DNA of 64,000 nt, from the NCBI GenBank assembly GCA_016281335.1, contig JAEEIK010000133.1, forward strand, positions 1-64,000, written 5' to 3'. Under the pieces are notes generated by a model. That model was not told where the DNA came from. It did not search any database and saw only the letters and a program-made list of their open reading frames with translations. Of the stretch, positions 1,209-21,909 are shown one piece after another (position 1 is the stretch's first letter; every line of letters starts with the position of its first letter). The translations under genes and the position numbers were made by a program. Source of the stretch: Lachnospiraceae bacterium. Lineage in GTDB: Bacteria > Bacillota > Clostridia > Lachnospirales > Lachnospiraceae.

Positions 1209-1721
1209 ATGGAAAAAGGAAAGATAATATTTTTAAACGGTGTTACCAGTTCTGGTAAAACATCGATAGTTGAGGCACTGCAGGCGCGCAGGGATGTGTT
1301 CTTCTATGTGGTTGCCAATGACCTGTTTCAGGAAATGGTTGGTGAACAGTATCTGGAGGAGAATTACTGGAAGTATCTTTCGGAAGTGATCATCATGATG
1401 TATCACACTGCAAAGCTTTATTCCGATATGGGTAAGAATGTTCTGATCGACGGAATACTTGTAGAGCGTGATGAGATCAAACCGCATTATCAGAAGCTTA
1501 AAGAGATATTAAAAGACAGCCCGCTTGATATTGTAGAAGCGTATTGTCCGTTAGAGATCTGCAGGCAGAGAAACATCGAGCGCGGAGACAGATATGAAAG
1601 CCAGTCTGATGAACAGGCGGAACTGATGAGTAAGGATATCGATTACAGTCTGCGCGTGGATACCAGTAAGTTAACTGCGGAAGAATGTGCGGAAGAGATC
1701 ATACGGAAGTTGTTTATGTGA
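1209..1721 (+). CDS. Chloramphenicol phosphotransferase (CPT)-like P-loop kinase
   Basis: NGVTSSGKTSI Walker A; CPT-like VEAYCPLEICRQRNIERGDR and YSLRVDTSKLTAEECAEEI. Confidence 0.75.
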   Translation: MEKGKIIFLNGVTSSGKTSIVEALQARRDVFFYVVANDLFQEMVGEQYLEENYWKYLSEVIIMMYHTAKLYSDMGKNVLIDGILVERDEIKPHYQKLKEILKDSPLDIVEAYCPLEICRQRNIERGDRYESQSDEQAELMSKDIDYSLRVDTSKLTAEECAEEIIRKLFM

Positions 1722-1759
1722 AATGATGATGCAGCTGCAGGCCTATATGGTGGATGATC

Positions 1760-2248
1760 ATGAAAATAATAATAATTAACGGCCCGATGGGGATCGGAAA
1801 AACAACAGCAGGTAACTTTATCGCAGACAGGCATCCCGGAACCGCATTTATAGACGGGGACTGGTGCATGGATATCCATCCTTTTGTGGGAAACAGGGAA
1901 ACAAAGGAAATGGCTGTTGATAACATTCTGCATATGATACGTAATTACCGGGAATGTTCGGAATGCGGGATGATCGTGCTCGCCTGGCTGATGGATGATG
2001 CATGGGTATATGAAAAGCTGACTGCAGGGATCAGGGAGTCAGGGCTTGAGATAAGGAGTGTTACCCTTGTCTGCGGTGAAGAACAATTGAGAAAACAGTG
2101 GATGGCAGATAAGAACTGTCCGTGGCGAACCGGGGAATGGCTGGAGGCGGCGCTTAAGTCGCTGGATCATTTCTCGCAGGCGGATAACTGTATCAATACG
2201 AGCGGGCTATCCGTGGAAGAGGTCGCGGACCTGATTGAAGGAGAATGA
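1760..2248 (+). CDS. P-loop kinase (AAA family)
   Basis: INGPMGIGKTTAGNFIAD Walker A near N-terminus; exact start 1754 or 1760 uncertain. Confidence 0.7.
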   Translation: MKIIIINGPMGIGKTTAGNFIADRHPGTAFIDGDWCMDIHPFVGNRETKEMAVDNILHMIRNYRECSECGMIVLAWLMDDAWVYEKLTAGIRESGLEIRSVTLVCGEEQLRKQWMADKNCPWRTGEWLEAALKSLDHFSQADNCINTSGLSVEEVADLIEGE

Positions 2249-2254
2249 AAGAAA

Positions 2255-2788
2255 ATGGTATATTACAAAGACGATGAACTGATCATACGCTCTATGGAAG
2301 AGGCGGATGATAAGGAATTTTATGACGCGCTTACTGCGCAGGGATGGCACCCGCAGCCAGGTGCCTGGATGAAAAGAATGAAGGACGAGGCTGAAGGCAA
2401 GTGCATTACACTGCCAGCCGTGTATCAGGAACAGGCGGCAGGCTATGTGTATCTCTATAAGACGGTCAATGAAGGGCCGTTTAGGGGAAAAGGCTGGCCG
2501 ATGATCGTTGATTTCAATGTCCTGAAAAAGTTTCAGAGGAAGGGTATAGGCAACAGGCTTATGGATGCGGCAGAGAGGCTGGCGGTCGTGTATGCGGATA
2601 CGGTCTGTCTGGGAGTCGGAGTATGTGACAGCTATGGCAGTGCACAGAGGATGTACGTAAAACGCGAATACATCCCCGATGGATCGGGAGTATGGTATCA
2701 GGATAAACAATGCGTGCAATATGAGACGGTCTGCACGGTTGATGATGATCTGATAATGTATCTGTATAAAAAACTGAAGGATGATTAA
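2255..2788 (+). CDS. GNAT acetyltransferase
   Basis: NVLKKFQRKGIGNRLMDAAERLA acetyl-CoA-binding motif. Confidence 0.75.
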   Translation: MVYYKDDELIIRSMEEADDKEFYDALTAQGWHPQPGAWMKRMKDEAEGKCITLPAVYQEQAAGYVYLYKTVNEGPFRGKGWPMIVDFNVLKKFQRKGIGNRLMDAAERLAVVYADTVCLGVGVCDSYGSAQRMYVKREYIPDGSGVWYQDKQCVQYETVCTVDDDLIMYLYKKLKDD

Positions 2789-2801
2789 GGAGGATAATTT
2801 T

Positions 2802-3251
2802 ATGGAGTATCAATTTAAAACTCTCCGGGAGATACCGGAAAAGAAGGATATGGCGGCACAGTGGTTTCATGAAAAGTGGGGTGTGCCCCAAGAAGCCTAT
2901 CTCGAATGTATGGAAGCCTATCTTGGCAAAGAAACGGAATACGGCTGGTACGTCTGTTTTGACGGCGATAAGATAATCGGCGGATTGGGAGTGATCGATA
3001 ACGATTTTCATGACCGAAAGGATCTGGCACCGAATGTCTGCGCCGTATTCGTTGATGAAGAATACAGAAAACAGGGAATCGCGGGAAAGCTGCTGGATCT
3101 GGCAGTGGAAGATCAGCGTGCACATGGTATTTCACCTTTATATCTGGTAACTGACCACACCGGCTTTTATGAGCGCTATGGCTGGGAATTCTTCTGCATG
3201 GCTCAAGGGGACGATGAACCTGAACCCACAAGATTATATATACACAAATGA
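2802..3251 (+). CDS. GNAT acetyltransferase
   Basis: AVFVDEEYRKQGIAGKLLDLAVEDQR; FYERYGWEF; start after aaggagg. Confidence 0.8.
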   Translation: MEYQFKTLREIPEKKDMAAQWFHEKWGVPQEAYLECMEAYLGKETEYGWYVCFDGDKIIGGLGVIDNDFHDRKDLAPNVCAVFVDEEYRKQGIAGKLLDLAVEDQRAHGISPLYLVTDHTGFYERYGWEFFCMAQGDDEPEPTRLYIHK

Positions 3252-3556
3252 AAAGAATTATACCATTTATCCTGATACTGTGTTTTATGCTTTCGGCCTG
3301 CGGCTCTCAGGAGGTTATCGGCAGCGTATACGGATCCGAACATGAGTATACATCGATCGGAGAAGATACATATACGTTGTGCGATAATCCGGGAGTCAGT
3401 ATTGCATGGGATAAAGATGAACTCTTAGGTATCGTCGAGTTTGAGAATGCTGATACGGATCCGATGAAGGTATACAGCATTAAAGGCTATGATGATAAAG
3501 ATTACATCTATACCATATGGGTATATGACGGGGCATTTTATAAAAAGGATAAATGA
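3248..3556 (+). CDS. Small lipoprotein
   Basis: Lipobox signal peptide MKRIIPFILILCFMLSACGS; overlaps upstream stop by 4 nt. Confidence 0.6.
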   Translation: MKRIIPFILILCFMLSACGSQEVIGSVYGSEHEYTSIGEDTYTLCDNPGVSIAWDKDELLGIVEFENADTDPMKVYSIKGYDDKDYIYTIWVYDGAFYKKDK

Positions 3557-4519: not shown

Positions 4520-5881
4520 ATGAACGAAGAAAAAAAGCAATTGGAGATGTGCTGGATCGTAACGGATGATCCGATAGAAATTGAGTTCCCTGCCGGGTAT
4601 ACTATGGAAAACTATGCAGGCGAACAGGATAAGCAGGCATGGTGTGAATGCTGCCGCGAAGGTATGCTGATGGATGAGAAAGCGGGAACACAGGCTTTTG
4701 ATGATTCGATGTCGGATGGGATAGTGGTCGATCTTTATAATGATGTTTTCTTCCTGAAGTATAAGGGTGAAGTGATCGGAACCGTTACAGCTTTTGTGAG
4801 AGAAGACGGTAACGGCGAACTTCATATGGTCAGCATACGTCCGGAATACAGAGGTAAGGGGCTTAGCAAGTATCTTAATGAAACCGGCAAGCTGAAACTT
4901 CAGTATGCCGGAGCAAAATGCATTTATCTTACTACAGATGAATTCCGCAGGGGAGCGATCAAGGGTTATCTTTCTGCAGGTTTCCTGCCGGTAGATAACG
5001 ATGCGGATATGCAGGACAGATGGGAACAGGTACTGGATGATCTTGGTATCGTTAAAACAGATATGCTTAAGGAAGATCTTAGTGGAAGAAATACCATATA
5101 TCGCATACCGGAATCCATCCGACAGCATATCGCTTATAAAACTTATCATATGGATAATGTAGGCTGTTCGGATTCACAGGTTCGGATATACGATGATCTC
5201 GTTCTGAAGATCGAGGAAGAAAGAACGGAACTTGCTGATATGGTATCACTTATGAAATGGCTGGAGGGAAAACTGCCCGTACCGAAAGTGATATATACGG
5301 AAGTGAGCGGAGGATACCGCTATCTGCTCATGAGTAAAGCTGAAGGGCTCATGGCCTGTGATCCCTATTATATGGAACGCCCCGATGAACTGTTACCGCT
5401 TCTTGCAGAAACTATCCGTATGCTTTGGCAGGTGGACATATCTGCATGTTCGAGAAAACGTACGCTTGATAATGTGCTGAAAGAAGCAAGATACCGCGTG
5501 GAAAATGATATGGTGGATGTTGATGATGCGGAGCCTGAGACCTACGGAGACGGAGGCTTCAGGGATCCTTATGAGCTGTTATCCTGGCTGGAAGCAAACA
5601 GGCCGGAAGAGGAGCTTGTATTCTCGCATGGAGATCTCTGTCTGCCGAATATATTTTTCAAGGATGGAAAGCTCAGCTGTCTCATAGATCTTGGAAATGC
5701 CGGAGTATGCGATAAATGGCAGGATCTGGCACTCTGCTACCGAAGCCTTAAACACAATGCTAACGGGAGTTACGGTAAGGTATATCCGGGGATAAATGAA
5801 GATGAACTTTTTAAATTACTTGGGATAGATCCTGATCAGGAGAAGCTGCGGTACTATATACTTCTTGATGAGTTGTTTTAA
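4520..5881 (+). CDS. Bifunctional GNAT acetyltransferase-aminoglycoside phosphotransferase APH(3')-like fusion
   Basis: N-terminal GNAT (VSIRPEYRGKGLSKYLNETGKLK..GYLSAGF); C-terminal APH(3') signature WLEGKLPVPKV..LLMSKAEG..PEEELVFSHGDLCLPNIFFKDGKLSCLIDLG..DKWQDLALCYRS..LGIDPDQEKLRYYILLDELF. Confidence 0.85.
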   Translation: MNEEKKQLEMCWIVTDDPIEIEFPAGYTMENYAGEQDKQAWCECCREGMLMDEKAGTQAFDDSMSDGIVVDLYNDVFFLKYKGEVIGTVTAFVREDGNGELHMVSIRPEYRGKGLSKYLNETGKLKLQYAGAKCIYLTTDEFRRGAIKGYLSAGFLPVDNDADMQDRWEQVLDDLGIVKTDMLKEDLSGRNTIYRIPESIRQHIAYKTYHMDNVGCSDSQVRIYDDLVLKIEEERTELADMVSLMKWLEGKLPVPKVIYTEVSGGYRYLLMSKAEGLMACDPYYMERPDELLPLLAETIRMLWQVDISACSRKRTLDNVLKEARYRVENDMVDVDDAEPETYGDGGFRDPYELLSWLEANRPEEELVFSHGDLCLPNIFFKDGKLSCLIDLGNAGVCDKWQDLALCYRSLKHNANGSYGKVYPGINEDELFKLLGIDPDQEKLRYYILLDELF

Positions 5882-5932: not shown

Positions 5933-6424
5933 ATGATAAGCTTAAAAGCGATCACAAGAGAAAATATTGATGAAGTGCTTGCGTTGCGCGTACGCGGTGA
6001 TCAGAAGGGCTTTGTGATCTCAACGGCAGACTCGCTCGCAAAAGCCTATGTATATCCGGATACGGCGTATCCTTTTGCGGTGTATGATGAAGCTGTGTTG
6101 GTAGGTTTTATCATGATGGGATATTATGAGCTGAAGAAGTATTATACACTTTGGGAATTTCTTATCGATCAAAGGTATCAGAACAAGGGTTATGGCAGGC
6201 AGGCGCTTAAGCTTGGAATGCAGTATGTGTGGGAAAGATTCGGAGCTGTTGATATATATACAGGGGTAGCACCCGGAAACAAAGCGGCAAAGCATTTATA
6301 TGAATCCGCAGGGTTTAAAGATACCGGACTTATTGAGTGCGGAATGGAAGAGATGAGATGTAGCTCAGAATACAGCAGGGATCAGAGCGGCGCGCCCGGT
6401 ATCAGAATGATAGGAGAAGGATGA
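5933..6424 (+). CDS. GNAT acetyltransferase (spermidine acetyltransferase BltD-like)
   Basis: FLIDQRYQNKGYGRQALKLGMQYV..GNKAAKHLYESAGF. Confidence 0.75.
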   Translation: MISLKAITRENIDEVLALRVRGDQKGFVISTADSLAKAYVYPDTAYPFAVYDEAVLVGFIMMGYYELKKYYTLWEFLIDQRYQNKGYGRQALKLGMQYVWERFGAVDIYTGVAPGNKAAKHLYESAGFKDTGLIECGMEEMRCSSEYSRDQSGAPGIRMIGEG

Positions 6425-7539
6425 TGAATACGGCAGGAACCAAAAGAATTGAAACAGAACGTTTGATACTGCGCAGATACGTGGTTGAGGATGCAGAGGA
6501 TATGTACAAGAACTGGGCGTCAGATCCGGAGGTAACTGCATTTCTGTCCTGGCCCACACATGCAGATGTATCGGTGACAAAAGGGATACTGGAAAATTGG
6601 GTGTCACATTATGATGAGGGAAGAACCTATAACTGGGGTATAACACTTAAGGGCAATGATCATGTGATCGGAAATATTGCTGTTGTTGAGCGAAGTGAAA
6701 GGACCTGTTCCTATGAACTGGGCTATTGCCTTGGCAGGGGATACTGGGGGCGTGGGATCATGCCGGAAGCACTGCGGGCTGTGATACAGTATCTTTTTGC
6801 AGAGGAGAAAGATCTGAACCGCGTTTATGCAAGCCATGATCTGCGCAATAAAAAATCAGGACGTGTAATGGAAAAAGCCGGGATGCATTATGACGGAAGC
6901 CTGCGTGCTTCGAAGAAGAATAATCACGGTTTCCATGATACAGCATATTATTCCATACTCCGCAGTGATCTGGTTACGCATGAGCAATATGCAAAGCTCT
7001 TTGGCGAAATGCATCCGGGATTTTTCGAAAGGGATTATATTCAAAGAGTTTCAGAGGATGAGCCTGCTTCAGAGATGCTGCTCAGACTGCAGAGTTTTGA
7101 TGAGAAGATCTATGATAAGAAATTGCCGGATAATATCCGCTTCGGCTATTATGACGGTGAGTTGAAAATGCTGAAGGAAGCGGTCAATGCCGTGCTTCCG
7201 CACTGGGTTCCGTTTTTTGACGGGAATTCGCGGGTGTATTGCAGTTTCGAGAATGAAAAGATAGTCAGTTTCTGTATGATCGAGGATTTCGGCGAGCATA
7301 CGGTAAATGATATGTCATGGAAGATAGGCGGACCGGGCTGTGTAGGTACGCTTCCGGAGTATCGTGGCAGAGGGATAGGTCTTACGATGGTACGAAACGT
7401 CACAAAGATACTGCTGGACGAATTCTATGACTACAGTTATATACATTATACTTATGAAACGGACTGGTATTCAAAGCTCGGATATAAGACGTTTCTTAAA
7501 TGGAACTGCAGGGGCATAGTTGAGGAAAAGAATGAATAA
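6421..7539 (+). CDS. Tandem GNAT-GNAT fusion (RimJ-type plus second GNAT)
   Basis: RIETERLILRRYVVEDAEDM..LGYCLGRGYWGRGIMPEALRAV (domain 1); GTLPEYRGRGIGLTMVRNVTKI..WYSKLGYKTF (domain 2). Confidence 0.8.
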   Translation: MMNTAGTKRIETERLILRRYVVEDAEDMYKNWASDPEVTAFLSWPTHADVSVTKGILENWVSHYDEGRTYNWGITLKGNDHVIGNIAVVERSERTCSYELGYCLGRGYWGRGIMPEALRAVIQYLFAEEKDLNRVYASHDLRNKKSGRVMEKAGMHYDGSLRASKKNNHGFHDTAYYSILRSDLVTHEQYAKLFGEMHPGFFERDYIQRVSEDEPASEMLLRLQSFDEKIYDKKLPDNIRFGYYDGELKMLKEAVNAVLPHWVPFFDGNSRVYCSFENEKIVSFCMIEDFGEHTVNDMSWKIGGPGCVGTLPEYRGRGIGLTMVRNVTKILLDEFYDYSYIHYTYETDWYSKLGYKTFLKWNCRGIVEEKNE

Positions 7540-8209
7540 ACTGGAAAAGATGGGAGAGTTCTTTAATGCCAGACTGGATGGTTATGAAGAACATCAGATG
7601 ACTACAATAGAATTTGCGGAGGAGTTTTATCCGTATACGGCTGAGTGCCTGCCGAGAATTTCGAAGTCATGCATTTTAGATCTGGGCTGCGGGACCGGAC
7701 TGGAACTGGATCATTATTTCAGGATCGTTCCCGATGCGAGAATTACAGGTGTCGACCTTGCAGAAGATATGCTGGGTGAGCTTGAAAAAAAACATGCTGA
7801 TAAGGATATAAGATTGATAAATGCTTCTTATTTTGAAGCACCGTTCGGGGAGGAATTGTATGATGCGGCAGTTTCAGTTGAATCACTCCACCATTTCACG
7901 AAAGAAGAGAAAATCCCTTTATATACTAAGCTGAATAAGGCTTTGAAAAACGGAGGGTATTTTATACTGACCGATTACTTTGCGCTTACGGACGAAGAGG
8001 AGAAACAAAAACGCAGTGAATTACTGGCTTTAAGAAAAGAGCAGGGATTGCCGGATGGAGTGTTTTATCACTATGATACTCCGCTTACTGTGGAACATGA
8101 GACAGAGGCTTTACATGAGGCGGGCTTTACTGCTGTTCGGGTAATTAAGAGCTGGGGAGTAACTCATACCATTAAAGCGATCAGATCAACCGGGGGGACG
8201 GTTCTCTGA
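7532..8209 (+). CDS. Class I SAM-dependent methyltransferase with REP-derived C-terminus
   Basis: ILDLGCGTGLELDHYFRIVPDARITGVDLAEDML; last codons STGGTVL* lie in REP copy 3; ATG at 7532 preferred. Confidence 0.8.
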   Translation: MNKLEKMGEFFNARLDGYEEHQMTTIEFAEEFYPYTAECLPRISKSCILDLGCGTGLELDHYFRIVPDARITGVDLAEDMLGELEKKHADKDIRLINASYFEAPFGEELYDAAVSVESLHHFTKEEKIPLYTKLNKALKNGGYFILTDYFALTDEEEKQKRSELLALRKEQGLPDGVFYHYDTPLTVEHETEALHEAGFTAVRVIKSWGVTHTIKAIRSTGGTVL

Positions 8210-8213
8210 TTGG
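8185..8213 (+). repeat. REP-like repeat copy 3 (G-rich), overlaps CDS 3' end
   Basis: atcaaccggggggacggttctctgattgg. Confidence 0.9.
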
Positions 8214-8240: not shown

Positions 8241-8843
8241 ATGAAACGCAAACGGCTTAACAGAGATGGCTGGGGCTTCCAGTATTATCCCTATTATCAG
8301 CTGAGGATAGATGACCCGGTCTTTAAGGGAACAGCGTGCCTGATAAAGCTGACGGATGGGGAAGCAAATTATTGGAACACGCCGAAAGCAGGCAGGATAC
8401 AGGTGACGGGAAGCGGCATGTCCTGGCTGGAACTGATCCCGGACAATGCATATCATGTGATAACGATCAAGTATTTCCCCGAAGGTTCTCATGATCCGGA
8501 AAGAAAGGCTTATCCTGTTCCTGCTGATGAAAAATATCAGCCATCGATCTGGTATGTGGATGTTATAGAAGGAATCGAATATGATGATCATGGCATAGCC
8601 GTATTTATTGATAAATATCTTGATGTGATCTTCACTCCGGAAGGTGATATCAAGATTGATGACAGGGATGAACTTGAGGCTGCATTTTCATCCGGAGAAT
8701 TATCGAAAGAGCAATATGATGCGGCACTTGCGGAAAGTGAAATGATCCTCCGTAAGTATTGCAGTGATATCCGTAAAACAGACGAATGGTGTGCAAGTAT
8801 AAGGAGACTGGTTGAGGAAAGAATCAATGACGGATTATGTTGA
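8241..8843 (+). CDS. DUF402-type protein
   Basis: IWYVDVIEGIEYDDHGIAVFIDKYLDVIFTPEGDIKIDDRDELEAA pattern. Confidence 0.65.
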   Translation: MKRKRLNRDGWGFQYYPYYQLRIDDPVFKGTACLIKLTDGEANYWNTPKAGRIQVTGSGMSWLELIPDNAYHVITIKYFPEGSHDPERKAYPVPADEKYQPSIWYVDVIEGIEYDDHGIAVFIDKYLDVIFTPEGDIKIDDRDELEAAFSSGELSKEQYDAALAESEMILRKYCSDIRKTDEWCASIRRLVEERINDGLC

Positions 8844-9564
8844 ATATGCGAAGATGACGGGAAGCAACCGGGTATATCCTTTATCCATAGCTGAAGGATA
8901 TCAGAGCGGTGATATTATCGCAGATAGTATAAATGATGTTCAATGTGTTATGTTCTGGCACTATTGTGGATTTGCATATCTTTCCGGTAAAGTGACAGAA
9001 CCATTTCTAAACAGGATCTATGAGGATTATTTCTGTAAGGAGATAAAGCGACGATTTGTACTCATAACTGATGATGAGAAGGTAATACAGTTCTTTGAGG
9101 GAAAAGATGGACTGGCTATGGATCAGCGGAAGGAATACCGCTTCAATAATGATGTGACTTTTTCTGCAGAGGATTTTAATATAGACCTAAGGGTTGAAAG
9201 AATAGATGATTCTAACATAGAGTTTATACAGGGAAGGATCGTCCCGGCTTTTTCCTGGGATTCATCTGATACATTTCTTAAGAAGGGCTTCGGATACATC
9301 GCAATGGACGGGGATAAGTATGCGGCTGTGGCATTTTCTGCGGCAGTGAGTTCTGAAGAAGTGGATATAGGCGTGGAAACAAACGAAGCATACAGGAATC
9401 GCGGCCTGGCGAAGATACTGGCAATACATATGATACGTGAAATACTGAATATCGGAAAGACTCCGGTATGGGCGCATGCGGCCGGTAATACGGCTTCCAT
9501 GAAAACATCGCTGGGAGTGGGTTTTAAGGAGATACATTGTAACACGGTCATCAGGAAGGCTTGA
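8827..9564 (+). CDS. GNAT acetyltransferase (GNAT_acetyltr_2-like)
   Basis: VETNEAYRNRGLAKILAIHMIREIL..GNTASMKTSLGVGF. Confidence 0.7.
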   Translation: MTDYVEYAKMTGSNRVYPLSIAEGYQSGDIIADSINDVQCVMFWHYCGFAYLSGKVTEPFLNRIYEDYFCKEIKRRFVLITDDEKVIQFFEGKDGLAMDQRKEYRFNNDVTFSAEDFNIDLRVERIDDSNIEFIQGRIVPAFSWDSSDTFLKKGFGYIAMDGDKYAAVAFSAAVSSEEVDIGVETNEAYRNRGLAKILAIHMIREILNIGKTPVWAHAAGNTASMKTSLGVGFKEIHCNTVIRKA

Positions 9565-9566
9565 TA

Positions 9567-10379
9567 ATGAAGATACGTGAACTGAAAACGTCAGAAACAG
9601 GACTTCTGAAAGATTTCCTGTATGAAGCGATATTTATTCCGGAAGGTGTGGAAGCGCCGGATCGTAAGATCATTGAACTGCCGGAACTAAGATTGTATTA
9701 TGAGGATTTCGGAAAAGGAAAAGCTGATCTTTGCCTTGTTTGCGAAGAGGGCGGAAGGGTAGTCGGTGCAGTCTGGACCAGGATCATGAATGATTACGGG
9801 CATGTAGATGACGATACGCCATCTTTTGCAATCTCTTTATATAAGGAATACAGGGGCAGAGGCGTCGGAACAAAACTCATGTATGCCATGCTTGAACTGC
9901 TCAGGTCAAAAGGATATAAAAGGGCCTCCCTGGCAGTACAGAAAGCAAACTATGCCGTACGCATGTATGAAAAAGTAGGCTTTCGTATCACGGATCAGAA
10001 TGATGAAGAGTATATCATGGTATATGATGACAACCGATCAGGGGGACGGTTCTATGATCTTGTTAAGAAGATACCATCCGGAAGAGTTGCAACATACGGT
10101 CAGATTGCGGAACTTGCCGGAAACCGGAAACTTGCCCGTGTAGTCGGAAACCTGCTTCACAGAAATCCGGATCCGGATAATATCCCCTGCTATCGGGTGG
10201 TCAATGCAAAAGGAGAGCTGGCGGAGAATTTCGCTTTCGGCGGAGCCGGAGCGCAGAAAAAACTTCTGGAAGCGGAAGGCGTAGTGGTGGAAGGCGGAAG
10301 AGTAGACCTAAATTTGTTTCAGTGGAAACCAACCGGGAGCAACCGGGGGGACGGTTCTCTGATCGGTCTGGAAAAATAA
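9567..10379 (+). CDS. GNAT acetyltransferase-O6-methylguanine-DNA methyltransferase (MGMT/Ogt-type) fusion joined by an in-frame REP repeat
   Basis: GNAT SLYKEYRGRGVGTKLMYAMLELLR..MYEKVGFRI; MGMT FYDLVKKIPSGRVATYGQIAELAG..NIPCYRVVNAKGELA; linker DDNRSGGRFYD is encoded by a REP copy; ORF is continuous. Confidence 0.85.
   Translation: MKIRELKTSETGLLKDFLYEAIFIPEGVEAPDRKIIELPELRLYYEDFGKGKADLCLVCEEGGRVVGAVWTRIMNDYGHVDDDTPSFAISLYKEYRGRGVGTKLMYAMLELLRSKGYKRASLAVQKANYAVRMYEKVGFRITDQNDEEYIMVYDDNRSGGRFYDLVKKIPSGRVATYGQIAELAGNRKLARVVGNLLHRNPDPDNIPCYRVVNAKGELAENFAFGGAGAQKKLLEAEGVVVEGGRVDLNLFQWKPTGSNRGDGSLIGLEK
10031..10059 (+). repeat. REP-like repeat copy 4, inside a coding sequence
   Basis: caaccgatcagggggacggttctatgatc; near-identical to copy 1. 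Confidence 0.85.
10340..10366 (+). repeat. REP-like repeat copy 5 (G-rich), overlaps C-terminus of GNAT-MGMT fusion
   Basis: caaccggggggacggttctctgatcgg. Confidence 0.9.
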
Positions 10380-10414
10380 GGGTTTCAGAGTAGTTGAGGG
10401 GGATTTTAAACCGA

Positions 10415-10443
10415 AATCAACCGGGGAACCCTCCCACTGATTG
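10415..10443 (-). repeat. REP-like repeat copy 6 (inverted core), pairs with copy 5
   Basis: aatcaaccggggaaccctcccactgattg. Confidence 0.75.
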
Positions 10444-10458
10444 AAAAGGAGAAGAATT

Positions 10459-10956
10459 ATGGAATACTGGGATCTTTATGATGCGGAACGGAAGCCTCTT
10501 GGGCGCACACATGCACGCGGAGAGAAATTCGGAGAAGGTGAATACTATGTATGTTGTGAAATATGGGTGCGCAATAAAGAGGGGCGCTTTCTTACTACAA
10601 AACGTCATCCGGATAAAACTGCAGGCAATAAGTGGGAGTTTGTAGGCGGGGGAACACTTGCCGGAGAGACTACTCTTGATTCGGCTGTGAGAGAGCTTTT
10701 CGAGGAGACCGGTATAGTTATTGATAAGAGTGAATTAAGGCTTTTGACTACCAATGCAAAGAAAAACTATTTTCTTGATATTTATCTTGTGAAAAAAGAC
10801 GTAGACATAAAAGATGTGATTCTTCAACCGGAAGAAACAACTGATGCCAAATGGTCATCGGATGAAGACATCAAGGCTATGATAGCATCCGGTGAATTTG
10901 CTTATTCTGTGGGAGTACGGTATGAAAAGTATCGAGAACTGTGTTGGGAGGTGTGA
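10459..10956 (+). CDS. Nudix hydrolase
   Basis: Nudix box-like GGGTLAGETTLDSAVRELFEETGI. Confidence 0.8.
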   Translation: MEYWDLYDAERKPLGRTHARGEKFGEGEYYVCCEIWVRNKEGRFLTTKRHPDKTAGNKWEFVGGGTLAGETTLDSAVRELFEETGIVIDKSELRLLTTNAKKNYFLDIYLVKKDVDIKDVILQPEETTDAKWSSDEDIKAMIASGEFAYSVGVRYEKYRELCWEV

Positions 10957-10958
10957 TA

Positions 10959-11297
10959 ATGGTATCAATTGATATGAATAAAACAGGGCTTAGGATTAAA
11001 AAATATGTTTCTGATGCCGGCTACAGCGTTAAGTTTATACAGGAATACTTAGGGCTTTCCTGTCCGCAGCCGATTTACAGATGGTTTAAAGGAAAGATAC
11101 TGCCATCGATAGATAATCTATTGAGATTAAGTGAATTATTTAATATTCATATGGAAGATTTATTGGTTAAGAGTAAAGAAAATGTTCATATCTTCGAATT
11201 AATGCCTACAAATCATCGGCCGAGCATATTAAAACGCTTATTATCGTATTATACCGAAGTATCCGGATGTTTGGATTTTGGACTATCCGTCCAATGA
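10959..11297 (+). CDS. XRE-family helix-turn-helix protein
   Basis: GLRIKKYVSDAGYSVKFIQEYLGLSCPQPIYRWFKGKILPSIDNLLRLSELFNI HTH pattern. Confidence 0.75.
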   Translation: MVSIDMNKTGLRIKKYVSDAGYSVKFIQEYLGLSCPQPIYRWFKGKILPSIDNLLRLSELFNIHMEDLLVKSKENVHIFELMPTNHRPSILKRLLSYYTEVSGCLDFGLSVQ

Positions 11298-11320
11298 CAT
11301 TAAGTAAGGCATGATTTATC

Positions 11321-11348
11321 ATCAATCAGAGGGACGGTTCTGTGATCG
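11321..11348 (+). repeat. REP-like repeat copy 7 (G-rich), left half of pair upstream of transposase
   Basis: atcaatcagagggacggttctgtgatcg. Confidence 0.8.
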
Positions 11349-11398
11349 CCACGGGAAAATGGGGCTTTTTCAACGGATGAAGTGGTTGTTGGCCCCAA

Positions 11399-11427
11399 AT
11401 TCAACCGGAGAACAGTCCCCGTGATTG
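11399..11427 (-). repeat. REP-like repeat copy 8 (inverted core), right half of pair upstream of transposase
   Basis: attcaaccggagaacagtccccgtgattg. Confidence 0.85.
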
Positions 11428-11442
11428 AAGGGAGGAATGATC

Positions 11443-12198
11443 ATGCCAAGAAAAGCCCGAGAAAAAGCAAAAAGCGGGATATATCATGTGATGCTTAGGG
11501 GGATAAATCATCAGCAGATTTTTGAGGAAGAAGATGATTATCAGGTATTTCTGCGAATATTGCGTAAATGCAAAAGAGTAAGCGGATTTAAGCTCCTGGC
11601 CTATTGCCTGATGGGGAATCATATACATCTGCTTATCAAGGAAAATGAGGAAAAACTTGAGCTGATACTTAAGCGAATAGGAGTCAGATTTGTCAGGTGG
11701 TATAATCAGAAATATCAGAGAAGCGGGCATTTGTTTCAGGACCGGTTCAAAAGTGAAATTGTGGATGATGAAAGATACCTGATCACCGTGATCGCTTATA
11801 TCCATCAGAATCCTGTGAAAGCAGGTATATGTATGAATCCGGAGGAGTATCGATACAGCAGTTACAGAGAATACCAAAAGTATCATTCGTTGGTGGATAT
11901 GGATTTTGTAGAAAGCATCATTTCGCGGGAGACTATCGTATCATACAGCAAAGCAATGATAAATAAGCAATGTTTGGAAATGGGTGAAAAAACTGTCTGC
12001 GGTGTAACGGATTTAAAAGCTAAGGAGATGATCATAGATATTGCAGGGCTGGATGATACTACGGAGCTTAAAGAGATAGAAAAGTGTAAAAGACAGAGAA
12101 TTATAAAATCATTAAATGTACATGGATTAACCATGCGTCAGATCAGTCGATTAACTGGAATATCTTATTATACAGTCAGAAAGGCAATCGTTGGATAA
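11443..12198 (+). mobile_element. Y1/HUH transposase of the REP-associated (RAYT/TnpA_REP-like) IS200 superfamily
   Basis: MPRKAREKAKSGIYHVMLRGINHQQIF; HUH motif YCLMGNHIHLLI; candidate catalytic Tyr in VIAYIHQNPVKAG; flanked by REP-like repeats. Confidence 0.9.
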
Positions 12199-12240
12199 GC
12201 TGGGGACAAAAAGGGAGCAAAGTCGGAGAGGTATCGTGAA

Positions 12241-12723
12241 ATGGATATAGATGATTATATAGAATTGTATAAAAGCGGCGGATATATTAGGGAAATGCGT
12301 AAGCATGTGGGGCATGCTCCTGTGATGACATGTGCCTGCGGTGTGATTATAGAAAACGACAAGGGAGAAATTCTGCTGCAGAAAAGAAAGGATAACAGCT
12401 GCTGGGCTATCATCGGCGGTTCCATGGAAATGGGAGAGACTTTTGAGGAAACCGTAAGGAGAGAGACCAGGGAGGAATCCGGTCTGACTATAGGTGAGCT
12501 GGAATTGTTTCAGCTTTATTCCGGGAGGGATCGTATCATAGAATATCCTAACGGAGATATCTGTTTTGGCCCGGGAATTGTTTTTATCACAAGGGAATAT
12601 GAAGGTGAAATAGTAAATGATCCGGAAGAAGTATTGGAACACCGTTTTTTTAGCAAAAGGGAATTGCCTGAAAACCTGAACGGATATGATAGAGATATAA
12701 TACTTGAATGGGCAGGCAGATAA
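12241..12723 (+). CDS. Nudix hydrolase
   Basis: Nudix box GGSMEMGETFEETVRRETREESGL. Confidence 0.85.
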   Translation: MDIDDYIELYKSGGYIREMRKHVGHAPVMTCACGVIIENDKGEILLQKRKDNSCWAIIGGSMEMGETFEETVRRETREESGLTIGELELFQLYSGRDRIIEYPNGDICFGPGIVFITREYEGEIVNDPEEVLEHRFFSKRELPENLNGYDRDIILEWAGR

Positions 12724-12725
12724 GA

Positions 12726-12754
12726 AATCAACCGCAGAACCGTCCCCGTGATTG
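12726..12754 (-). repeat. REP-like repeat copy 9 (inverted core)
   Basis: aaatcaaccgcagaaccgtccccgtgatt. Confidence 0.9.
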
Positions 12755-12771
12755 AAAGAGAGTATAAGAAT

Positions 12772-13260: not shown

Positions 13261-14284
13261 AGCTGAAAAACTCAAAAAGGGTGATACGATAGCTACGATA
13301 AGTCCATCATGGGGATGTGCCGGGGCAACGCGTGTATTGTGGAAATACCGTTTGGGCTGCGAGCGTCTTAAGGAAATGGGGTTAAATGTTGTGGCGGCAC
13401 CCAATTCATTAAGAGGGACTGCATATCTCAGGGATAATCCGAAGGCCAGGGCTGAGGATGTTATGTGGGCCTTTGAAAATAAAGAGATCAGAGGAATCAT
13501 AGCAAATATAGGCGGGAATGATTCCGTTAGGTTATTGCCATATCTGTCTTCAAAAATCATATCCGATAATCCGAAAATCCTTTGTGGGTACTCGGATGTA
13601 TTGGCGCTTCATCTTTTTTGCTACAGAGCCGATCTGATGACCTATTACGGAGATAATCTGTTAACGACCGTGGCAGAAGCCGGTGGATGGCATCCTTACA
13701 GCCGCTACTGGTTTGAAAAAGTATTTTTTGATGATAAGCATATCGGTAACATCAAACCTGCGGAAGAATGGTCATATGATAAAGAATCGCATACAGATAA
13801 AAAATACAGAAAATACTATCTGACCAATCCCGGTTACCGCTATGTGCAGGGAAAAGGGACAGTAAGGGGAAAGCTGTTTGGCGGTCATGGTGATCTCCTC
13901 ACTTTGAAGATGCCTGACGGAAATCCTGCTGTACATAAAGAAGATTTTGAAAATAGTATCCTTTTCTTTGAGGATATTCCTGAGTTCTGCGATGAAGAAT
14001 ATATGGCAGATTTCTTTGACCGGCTGGGAAAGAACGGTTATCTTCAGATCTTAAACGGAGTTATCATAGGAAAGATGAAAAGACCGGAGAGTTTTGATAC
14101 TTATGCGGAACGCATCCGTTCTGTTGTGACGGATAAATACAATTGCCCGGATCTGCCGGTAATGAGTGATCTTAACTTCGGACATACATCACCTATATGT
14201 ATATTGCCTTACGGTGCGGAGGCGGAATTAAATATTCATAAGTTGACATTCAGTATAAAATCAACCGGGGGGAAGGTTCTCTGA
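13253..14284 (+). CDS. S66 family peptidase (LD-carboxypeptidase / MccF-like) with REP-derived C-terminus
   Basis: LKKGDTIATISPSWGCAG..IRGIIANIGGNDSVRLLPYL..NPKILCGYSDVLALH; ends STGGKVL* inside REP copy 10. Confidence 0.8.
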   Translation: MIKAEKLKKGDTIATISPSWGCAGATRVLWKYRLGCERLKEMGLNVVAAPNSLRGTAYLRDNPKARAEDVMWAFENKEIRGIIANIGGNDSVRLLPYLSSKIISDNPKILCGYSDVLALHLFCYRADLMTYYGDNLLTTVAEAGGWHPYSRYWFEKVFFDDKHIGNIKPAEEWSYDKESHTDKKYRKYYLTNPGYRYVQGKGTVRGKLFGGHGDLLTLKMPDGNPAVHKEDFENSILFFEDIPEFCDEEYMADFFDRLGKNGYLQILNGVIIGKMKRPESFDTYAERIRSVVTDKYNCPDLPVMSDLNFGHTSPICILPYGAEAELNIHKLTFSIKSTGGKVL

Positions 14285-14288
14285 TTGG
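14258..14288 (+). repeat. REP-like repeat copy 10 (G-rich), overlaps CDS 3' end
   Basis: aaaatcaaccggggggaaggttctctgattg. Confidence 0.85.
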
Positions 14289-16158: not shown

Positions 16159-16186
16159 ATCAACCGGAGAACCGTCCCCGTGATTG
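16158..16186 (-). repeat. REP-like repeat copy 12 (inverted core)
   Basis: aatcaaccggagaaccgtccccgtgattg, followed by aaaggag. Confidence 0.9.
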
Positions 16187-16201
16187 AAAGGAGAGCTGAC
16201 A

Positions 16202-17224
16202 ATGAAGGAAGTTTTGGATAAGGGGTATATTCCATTCGATTGGAATAATGTTGAGAACAGGGAACACTGGCTGGATCCTTGTGAGGAGAGTTATTATTAC
16301 GCGCAGAAGTGGAAAAGGGAAGGCAGAAGGAGCGTGCTGGATCTGGGCTGCGGACTCGGACGTCATGCGGTGCTCTTTGCAAAGTGCGGCTTTAAGGTGA
16401 CCGCAACGGATATTTCAAAAGATGCGCTGGATTTCCTGAAACAATACCGGAGGGAACAGGGGGTGGATATTTCATGCCGGCTGGCCGATATGGAAAATCT
16501 ACCGTTTGCAGATGATGCTTTTGATGCGATCTTTGCGATGCATTCCGCCGGACACGCGGATACCGAAGGAATGAAGAGCGTCATGAAAGAGATCAGGCGA
16601 GTCCTGAAACCTGACGGAGCAGTGTTTATGACACTTTGTTCCAAAGAAACATGGACCTATGCTGAGTCCGGTATGCCGAAGGTAGATGAGAATACCGTGA
16701 TCAAAACGAAGGGACCGGAGCAGGGAGTTCCGCATTTCTTTGTGGATCAGGATGACATCGCAAAGCTTTTTGCGGATTTTGAACTGGTCAAAGTAAGGCA
16801 TATCGATGACTGTTATGAAGAGGGCAAATGGAAGATCCAGAAGCATTATTTTATTGAGGCGAAGGTCGAAAAGCAGGCTGTCAGCCATGATTATTCGGAT
16901 ATAATAGGAAAACGCGTTGACTGTAAGATAGACAGACCTTTAGGCACTGTACATCCAAGGCATCCGGATCTAAAATATGAGGTTAATTACGGATATGTGG
17001 AAGGGGTGATCGGCGGAGACGGAGAAGAGCAGGATGTGTATATTCTGGGAGTAACAGAGCCGCTTAAAGAGTTTTCCGGAAAGGTAATAGCCGTATACCA
17101 CAGATTAAACGATAACGAAGATAAATGGATCGTGGCACATGAGGGAGCAAAGCTTTCACGGGAAGAGATACTTAGTAAGATTGAATTTCAAGAAAAGTTT
17201 TTTGACGGTGACCTGTATTTATAA
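16202..17224 (+). CDS. SAM methyltransferase fused to C-terminal inorganic-pyrophosphatase-like domain
   Basis: VLDLGCGLGRHAVLFAKCGFKVTATDIS; C-terminal DRPLGTVHPRHPDLKYEVNYGYVEGVIGGDGEEQDVYILG. Confidence 0.8.
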   Translation: MKEVLDKGYIPFDWNNVENREHWLDPCEESYYYAQKWKREGRRSVLDLGCGLGRHAVLFAKCGFKVTATDISKDALDFLKQYRREQGVDISCRLADMENLPFADDAFDAIFAMHSAGHADTEGMKSVMKEIRRVLKPDGAVFMTLCSKETWTYAESGMPKVDENTVIKTKGPEQGVPHFFVDQDDIAKLFADFELVKVRHIDDCYEEGKWKIQKHYFIEAKVEKQAVSHDYSDIIGKRVDCKIDRPLGTVHPRHPDLKYEVNYGYVEGVIGGDGEEQDVYILGVTEPLKEFSGKVIAVYHRLNDNEDKWIVAHEGAKLSREEILSKIEFQEKFFDGDLYL

Positions 17225-20898: not shown

Positions 20899-20927
20899 CA
20901 ATCAACCGCAGAACCGTCCCCGTGATT
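20899..20927 (-). repeat. REP-like repeat copy 15 (inverted core), preceded by remnant tgattgtcaaca
   Basis: caatcaaccgcagaaccgtccccgtgatt. Confidence 0.9.
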
Positions 20928-20943
20928 GAAAGGAGTTAGAAAG

Positions 20944-21909
20944 ATGGTAGGCTTAATAGTTGCAAGATCAAAAAACAACGTGATAGGAAAGAACGGCATG
21001 ATCCCATGGAGGATAAAGGGAGAACAGAAGCAGTTCAAGCAGCTCACTACGGGGAACGCGGTGATCATGGGCAGAAAATCCTATGAAGAAATAGGCCGGC
21101 CGCTGCCGAACAGACTGAACATTATCGTGTCGGGGACAAAAAAGTTTGAGGGAGAAAACCTGCTGACCACTGCCTCAGTGCAGGAAGCGATAAAACTTGC
21201 GGGGGATAAGACGGTTTATATCGCCGGAGGCTATGGCCTGTATAAAGAGGCCATACCCTATGTCGATAAGATGTATATCACGGAAGTCGACACAGTGGTA
21301 GAAGACGGAGACGTGTTCTTTCCCGAGTTTGATGAAAGCGAGTTTGAAAAAAGCACAGGCGCAAGCGGCGGAGACGAGATAAGCTTTACCCGTACGACTT
21401 ATACCAGAAAGATACAGCAGCATGAGATAAAGGGAAAAACCATCACCTTCAGAAAACTTGGGGAAGCTGATCTTGATACTTTTATCAATATGCGCATAGG
21501 GCAGCTAACGGAGGAGTATGAGGCGGAAGGAAAGAATCCGCCCGAGGGTGTAGACCTTGAAACAGCGCTTAAAGCGTATTATCACACACACATGGCGGAT
21601 AATACCTTTGTTTCCTGGCTTGCTCTTGACGGTGATAAGATAATAGGAACCAGCGGCATGTCCTTTGTGGTGAAGCCACCTTATTTTACCTGTCCTACAG
21701 GACGGCTCGGGCTCTTATCCAGCATGTTCACTGATCCGGGCTACAGACGCATGGGAATTGCTAAGGAACTTCTTGAAAGAGTGACTGAAGAAGCCAGGGA
21801 TTACGGCTGCGGCGCCGTATGGATCACCGCATCAAATATGGGAGTAAAGCTTTATACTGCTTACGGCTTTGAACATAACGGCAATTTCATGCAGTATAAA
21901 CTTGTGTAA
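20944..21909 (+). CDS. Dihydrofolate reductase-GNAT acetyltransferase fusion
   Basis: DHFR MVGLIVARSKNNVIGKNGMIPWRIKGEQKQFKQLTTGNAVIMGRKSYEEIGRPLPNR..VYIAGGYGLYKEAIP; C-terminal GNAT SSMFTDPGYRRMGIAKELLERVTEEAR..LYTAYGFEHN. Confidence 0.88.
   Translation: MVGLIVARSKNNVIGKNGMIPWRIKGEQKQFKQLTTGNAVIMGRKSYEEIGRPLPNRLNIIVSGTKKFEGENLLTTASVQEAIKLAGDKTVYIAGGYGLYKEAIPYVDKMYITEVDTVVEDGDVFFPEFDESEFEKSTGASGGDEISFTRTTYTRKIQQHEIKGKTITFRKLGEADLDTFINMRIGQLTEEYEAEGKNPPEGVDLETALKAYYHTHMADNTFVSWLALDGDKIIGTSGMSFVVKPPYFTCPTGRLGLLSSMFTDPGYRRMGIAKELLERVTEEARDYGCGAVWITASNMGVKLYTAYGFEHNGNFMQYKLV

Follow-up and report, generated by a model that had tools for sequence, protein, structure and literature searches.

Gene organisation around the fused gene

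The window, i.e. the whole stretch of 64,000 nucleotides that we have analysed, comes from a rumen-type bacterium whose assembly (here G000) consists of 159 contigs. The gene that concerns us is located at positions 9567-10379 of the forward strand: it encodes 270 aa from the ATG at 9567, with a Shine-Dalgarno-like AGGAAGG upstream, while a start at the TTG at 9561 would give 272 aa. Its left neighbours are a DUF402 gene and a GNAT_acetyltran gene (8241-9564, forward strand), which are conserved in the relatives G001 and G024, and its right neighbour is a Nudix gene (10459-10956, forward strand), the position of which is conserved in G001 and the order in G029.

The gene consists of a GNAT domain (9567-10030), a joint REP (10031-10059, core 10034-10059), an MGMT DNA-binding domain (PF01035, 10054-10331) with its acceptor Cys in the motif PCYRVV, and a second REP (10340-10366) that accounts for residues 259-267 (NRGDGSLIG), after which only LEK and the stop codon remain; all of these lie on the forward strand. 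The preliminary description had read this gene as a GNAT-MGMT fusion with an in-frame REP as its linker and a further REP encoding the C-terminal GSNRGDGSLIG, and our analysis agrees with it in both respects, the peptide included: the frame is open, both domains are recognised by Pfam, and 25 of 26 bases at the joint match the REP.

The surrounding region (window 1-22000) is a co-directional array of small-enzyme genes with many REPs, among them kinases, GNATs, methyltransferases, Nudix, DUF402, a glycosylase and an S66 peptidase. Further ORFs that resemble two-domain fusions, with no REP at the joint, are located at 4520-5881, 6421-7539, 16184-17224 and 20926-21909.

Domains of the fused protein

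The reading frame is open across both domains, including the joint REP. The Acetyltransf_1 profile (PF00583) matches residues 44-139 (E 3e-16, 60 bits against a cut-off of 20.7) and the acetyl-CoA motif R/QxxGxG/A is present as EYRGRGVGTKLM; PF01035 matches residues 161-239 over profile positions 5-81 of 81 (E 3e-26, 91 bits against a cut-off of 27), and TIGR00589 matches the MGMT half with 49.5 bits (cut-off 46.4). The GNAT domain is complete and the MGMT DNA-binding domain is almost complete. The product should be one polypeptide of ~30 kDa, because the only in-frame start for the MGMT domain is Met151, inside the end of the GNAT domain; the predicted tryptic peptides that span the seam are ITDQNDEEYIMVYDDNR, FYDLVK and the missed-cleavage form SGGRFYDLVK. 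In the AlphaFold2 model, pLDDT is mostly about 90 for the GNAT half and mostly below 50, and so uninformative, for the MGMT half, since the input held a single MGMT relative.

The REP family and its transposase

If up to one mismatch is allowed, the 3.23-Mb genome contains the 16-base REP core 24 times and the reversed control pattern not once; these genome-wide counts come from pattern searches. Five shuffled windows contained no match to the REP core at up to 6 mismatches. Next to the fused gene, an inverted REP found by repeat search (10413-10439, reverse strand) completes a REP doublet before the Nudix gene, and further downstream a RAYT (REP-associated tyrosine transposase) is encoded at 11425-12198 on the forward strand (NCBIfam NF047646, 85.9 bits against a cut-off of 80; Pfam Y1_Tnp), with a REP at 11322-11347 and inverted REPs at ~11397-11424 and 12724-12755.

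The repeat is thus a multi-copy palindrome able to form a hairpin, associated with a RAYT gene that has repeats on both sides: as single-stranded DNA, an intact copy folds with a 10-bp stem (z -4.7), while the joint copy has lost the long hairpin. On inspection, neither end of CAACCGATCAGGGGGACGGTTCTCTGATCGG carries a terminal GTAG or CGTC tag, and we therefore call the repeat a RAYT-linked REP outside the GTAG/CGTC super-families. Two sets of candidates have been set aside: one-mismatch matches of the 16-mer inside conserved genes of other species look like chance, and GATCAGGGAGACTGCTTATGAT, located between the GNAT and S66 genes of G032 and G017, has a similar leader before the S66 gene of G001, where no GNAT gene is upstream.

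Distribution and source of the two halves

The fusion is carried by G000 alone, i.e. by one of 35 genomes of the genus and one of 397 sampled genomes of the family; none of the 34 other genus members or the 396 other sampled family members has GNAT and MGMT in one frame. Fused orthologues with a linker other than a REP, a finding that would speak against a fusion made at the repeat, were looked for among the relatives and none was seen. A scan of a contig collection of 84,980 species returned GNAT matches, a single one of which (L030) spanned both domains; it was rejected as a fused orthologue, being a YjbR-MGMT gene followed by a GNAT gene, with a TGA between them. L030 is the one adjacent GNAT/YjbR-MGMT pair that we have seen, and its order is opposite to that of the fusion.

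In the relatives, the GNAT is a stand-alone gene that ends at about residues 152-157, and the fusion's GNAT domain shares 89-91% protein identity with the stand-alone genes of G001 and G024. The three GNAT pairs formed by G000, G001 and G024 are all 90.7% identical with a dN/dS of 0.07-0.09, so the evolution of the GNAT is not visibly accelerated by the fusion, as far as these comparisons suggest. The GNAT family of the fusion seems to be often extended: an orthologue at L088 6001-6606 is interrupted mid-domain by an in-frame insertion of ~45 residues, and in other species the same family is fused, with no REP, to a second GNAT or to a nucleotidyltransferase-like domain (L039, L069).

The relatives encode the MGMT domain at another locus, in a YjbR-MGMT protein of which it makes up the C-terminal half and YjbR (PF04237) the N-terminal half; the best relatives of the fusion's MGMT domain are 71-75% identical to it and nearly all are located in YjbR-MGMT ORFs of 207-293 aa. 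A search of G000 for a second MGMT copy gave no match at the threshold used; two YjbR genes are present, both on other contigs. The donor lineage does not emerge from the MGMT tree, where the fusion's domain sits on a long branch; GC3 is similar in the two halves (0.42 and 0.45), and codon composition thus gives no sign of a foreign origin either way. Viral contigs were considered as a source and rejected, with no MGMT-domain relative and no copy of the junction found there. YjbR-MGMT proteins with the motif PC(Y/F/H)RVV form a widespread, apparently unnamed Lachnospiraceae family (L101-L117, L164-L192).

The preliminary description had attributed the new two-domain protein to a REP insertion or recombination that removed the upstream stop codon. 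Its derived state and the position of the REP, exactly at the joint, stand; the route by way of merging neighbours does not, as no relative was seen with GNAT followed by MGMT and an intergenic REP. Since the GNAT is a stand-alone gene elsewhere and the MGMT domain belongs to a YjbR-MGMT gene at another locus, the origin, judged from these sequences, is a domain swap: half a gene would have moved onto a REP-bearing GNAT end, rather than a stop codon having been lost between neighbours.

The joint REP and the crossover point

At the DNA level, the fusion is homologous to the G001 GNAT gene as far as 10030, one base ahead of the repeat flank CAACCG, and the MGMT domain starts at 10053/10054, which places both boundaries where they had been put beforehand (near 10030 and near 10053). 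The GNAT stop has indeed been lost at the REP, its place being taken by REP sequence: codons 156-162 (NRSGGRF) are REP-derived, and the sequence is MGMT-like from Y163 onward.

The joint CCGATCAGGGGGACGGTTCTATGATC (10034-10059) shares 25 of its 26 bases with the REP core. The match had been described as almost exact, which it is, but the single mismatch, A10054, had been passed over; this variant occurs in none of the other listed genomic copies (24 listed), and it is the base of the MGMT Tyr codon in the relatives. The mismatch is thus explained by the donor MGMT genes, which have an A at this position. MGMT genes of the genus typically start with AAGCGGATCTATGA(T/A/G)GC.GTAAAG, the repeat reads GGGACGGTTCTCTGATCGG and the window reads GGGACGGTTCTATGATCTTGTTAAG. 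T10050, in the Phe codon 162, is repeat-like, the corresponding MGMT column being Ile in all 42 other sequences, while A10054, in the Tyr codon 163, is MGMT-like; the crossover is therefore placed at 10051-10053.

The REP and the start of the MGMT domain in G032 share 10 of 12 bases, pointing to a crossover at a microhomology, although agreement with the REP at the seam is poorer (6-8 of 14 bases) in the closest MGMT relatives from other genera, so that the case for microhomology depends on the donor that is assumed. The G run at the joint (10041-10045) consists of five G; with six, translation would stop at a TGA inside the repeat.

Gene order on both sides of the fusion

On both sides, the outer flanks of the fusion keep the gene order of the relatives. 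In G001, the order is GNAT, SGNH hydrolase, REP, Nudix, HTH, RAYT; G000 lacks the SGNH gene and has the MGMT segment there instead, and 21 nt of the second REP (GAGCAACCGGGGGGACGGTTC) occur at the same position before the Nudix gene in both genomes. In G024, the GNAT gene is directly followed by the counterpart of the gene at window position 12748, the missing block (10022-12763) being bounded in the window by a REP and an inverted REP, and in G029 a YjbR-MGMT gene is located just upstream of the DUF402 gene. The SGNH hydrolase gene of G001 (L119 3867-4463) is present in no other genome of the genus.

This conserved synteny makes a sequencing or assembly error, the other finding that would undo the fusion, unlikely. 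The assembly does have 159 contigs and 24 near-identical repeats, 26-30 bases long and hence close to the shortest k-mer lengths in common use for assembly, through which two loci could have been joined. Such a chimera is nevertheless very improbable in our estimate: with the left side (DUF402, GNAT_acetyltran, GNAT) and the right side (Nudix, HTH, RAYT) both in the order of G001, it would need two misjoins within about 310 bases; the joint REP has a base that all other listed copies lack; and the contig spans 129,665 bases.

Proposed origin of the fusion

We regard a genuine, lineage-specific GNAT-MGMT gene fusion made at a REP as the probable explanation of the locus, and we infer the following order of events. 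A REP would first have been placed over the GNAT stop, giving the protein a short tail such as NRSGGRFSD; REPs that lie over the ends of many genes in the species pair G000/G001 would be parallels of this step. A break or a template switch at the REP hairpin would then have linked the REP, with the frame kept, to the beginning of the MGMT domain within a YjbR-MGMT gene, the two meeting over a short run of similar bases (CGG.TCT.TGAT). The far end of the MGMT segment runs into the second REP, which is sited before the Nudix gene in G001 too. The N-terminal YjbR domain would have been left behind, and the MGMT domain would have gained the GNAT instead. The most likely mechanism is template switching or end joining at the REP hairpin, the action of the transposase being possible. 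In starving Escherichia coli, REPs harboured 22 of 90 new junctions, and in 14 of these the shared homology was too short to allow homologous recombination (PMC3161906).

The transposase has a larger part in another account, where an MGMT fragment already adjoined the GNAT, the RAYT inserted a REP precisely between the two, and the Tyr codon was regained afterwards through a point mutation. In its favour, a RAYT is encoded 1 kb away, RAYT-type enzymes are believed to mobilise REPs (PMC8266576), a REP is located at both ends of the MGMT segment, and a C-to-A change after REP insertion would give an identical sequence. We consider this account unlikely: GNAT followed by MGMT is the order in no relative, the additional point mutation would have to match the MGMT genes by chance, and the upstream YjbR part would have to be lost exactly to the edge of the repeat.

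State of the MGMT half

The acceptor Cys, the flipping Tyr, the Arg finger, the Asn hinge and the Glu positions are all retained in the MGMT half on inspection, with residue roles assigned in part after PMC10779285. The canonical PCHR(V/I)(V/I) is replaced by PCYRVV, where the Cys is kept and the His is Tyr; the donor YjbR-MGMT family has Tyr, Phe or His at this position. Because of this Tyr, we call the domain MGMT-type rather than an active alkyltransferase. By sequence, the solved structures closest to it are those of a 108-aa protein (2kif) and of Alkyltransferase-like protein 1 (3gva), which is consistent with a domain that may work without the N-terminal domain of AGT.

The MGMT half could also be a decaying passenger, i.e. 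a tail of little use on a working GNAT, a reading of its function that is compatible with the same origin. Among the 43 MGMT domains of the tree, its branch is the longest (1.56; median 0.27), and three changes occur at otherwise invariant sites of the recognition helix (KMARAVGNALH to KLARVVGNLLH). We hold decay to be possible, albeit doubtful: the full domain is retained with the positions listed above, no stop or frameshift is present, and in comparison with the relatives, over a span that includes the time before the fusion, dN is about 0.2 and dS above 1. The fused protein is likely to combine a functional acetyltransferase with an alkyl-DNA-binding domain that carries a Cys and whose function is altered or relaxed.

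Comparison with known systems

Intragenic REPs and Rickettsia palindromic elements (RPEs), REP-located junctions and fusions of the AGT C-terminal domain are already known (PMC3733652, PMC3161906 and PMC10779285, respectively). The first are likewise short palindromic repeats that lie in frame within genes or at gene ends, but in the summary of PMC3733652 they are inserted into existing genes, whereas the present repeat forms the seam between two domains that come from unrelated loci. The E. coli junctions also lie inside REPs and have short microhomology; they are experimental amplifications and other structural changes, unlike the fusion of two coding sequences in a natural genome that we describe. 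With RAYT-REP systems (REPtrons; PMC2817692, PMC8266576), the locus shares a REP-flanked RAYT, repeats near gene 3' ends and REP doublets, and it differs in its low copy number (tens), its Lachnospiraceae host and the lack of a visible GTAG/CGTC tag.

AGT C-terminal-domain fusions include AGT-EndoV of Ferroplasma and AGT-2 of C. elegans, the latter with a histone-like domain (PMC10779285): as here, an alkyltransferase C-terminal domain without its N-terminal domain is joined to another domain, but here the partner is a GNAT and Tyr replaces the His of PCHR. A term search of that review found neither YjbR nor an acetyltransferase as a partner of the AGT domain. The YjbR-MGMT proteins of Lachnospiraceae, the source of the MGMT domain, have the same linker spacing (RIYE.VKKIP) with YjbR, not GNAT, at the N-terminus. 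In the literature that we have searched, which includes few subscription journals, we found no description of a new fusion gene with a REP at its seam.

REPs as joints and tails of other genes

A second fusion is present in G001, where a 631-aa ORF (L221, contig C225, reverse strand 1409-3304) links a methyltransferase that bears a pyrophosphatase-like extension with an inositol monophosphatase, the joint being an in-frame REP and an inverted REP. Pfam recognises only the methyltransferase and Inositol_P domains; the pyrophosphatase-like label is our own reading of the sequence. In the relatives, the two parts are separate genes on different contigs, and in G000 an inverted REP directly follows the stop codon (17222-17224) of the counterpart of the first part. 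The usual start of the monophosphatase, MTIER, is missing in G001, and none of the Met codons that remain in this part has a visible ribosome-binding site upstream. L221 is a second case of a REP-joined fusion, independent of GNAT-MGMT.

The origin of new domain combinations is usually guessed from old, worn examples, while the present seam is fresh enough to be read: the repeat, the unfused relatives and a crossover point within three bases are visible together, and a relative repeats the pattern with another gene pair. This suggests that REPs, which are usually discussed as intergenic, can make new proteins as C-terminal tails and linkers, a proposal that is testable in REP-rich genomes.

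At least 12 genes in G000 and G001 end in residues encoded by the repeat, namely TGGTVL-stop, GGRFSDR or GDGSLIG depending on the frame; the repeat is open in two of its three frames and terminates itself in the third. More speculatively, and with rather little probability, REPs and the RAYT could form a crude cassette system, made up of a co-oriented array of small-enzyme genes with REPs at many of their 3' ends, where REP-adjacent cargo is exchanged, yielding new C-termini and multidomain proteins, the frame perhaps being switched by the length of the G run; this idea draws on the SGNH hydrolase of G001 and the MGMT segment of G000, which lie between the same flanks. REP tails of genes, often including the stop codon, are located at window positions 8195-8210 and 14270-14285 and in L207, L212, L216, L219 and L119. 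Orthologous methyltransferases end in STGGTVL-stop in G000, with six G, and in STGGRFSDCLEI-stop in G001, with five G; in this pair (window 7520-8209 and its L119 orthologue), the length of the G run, six or five, sets whether the protein ends in TGGTVL-stop or TGGRFSDCLEI-stop.
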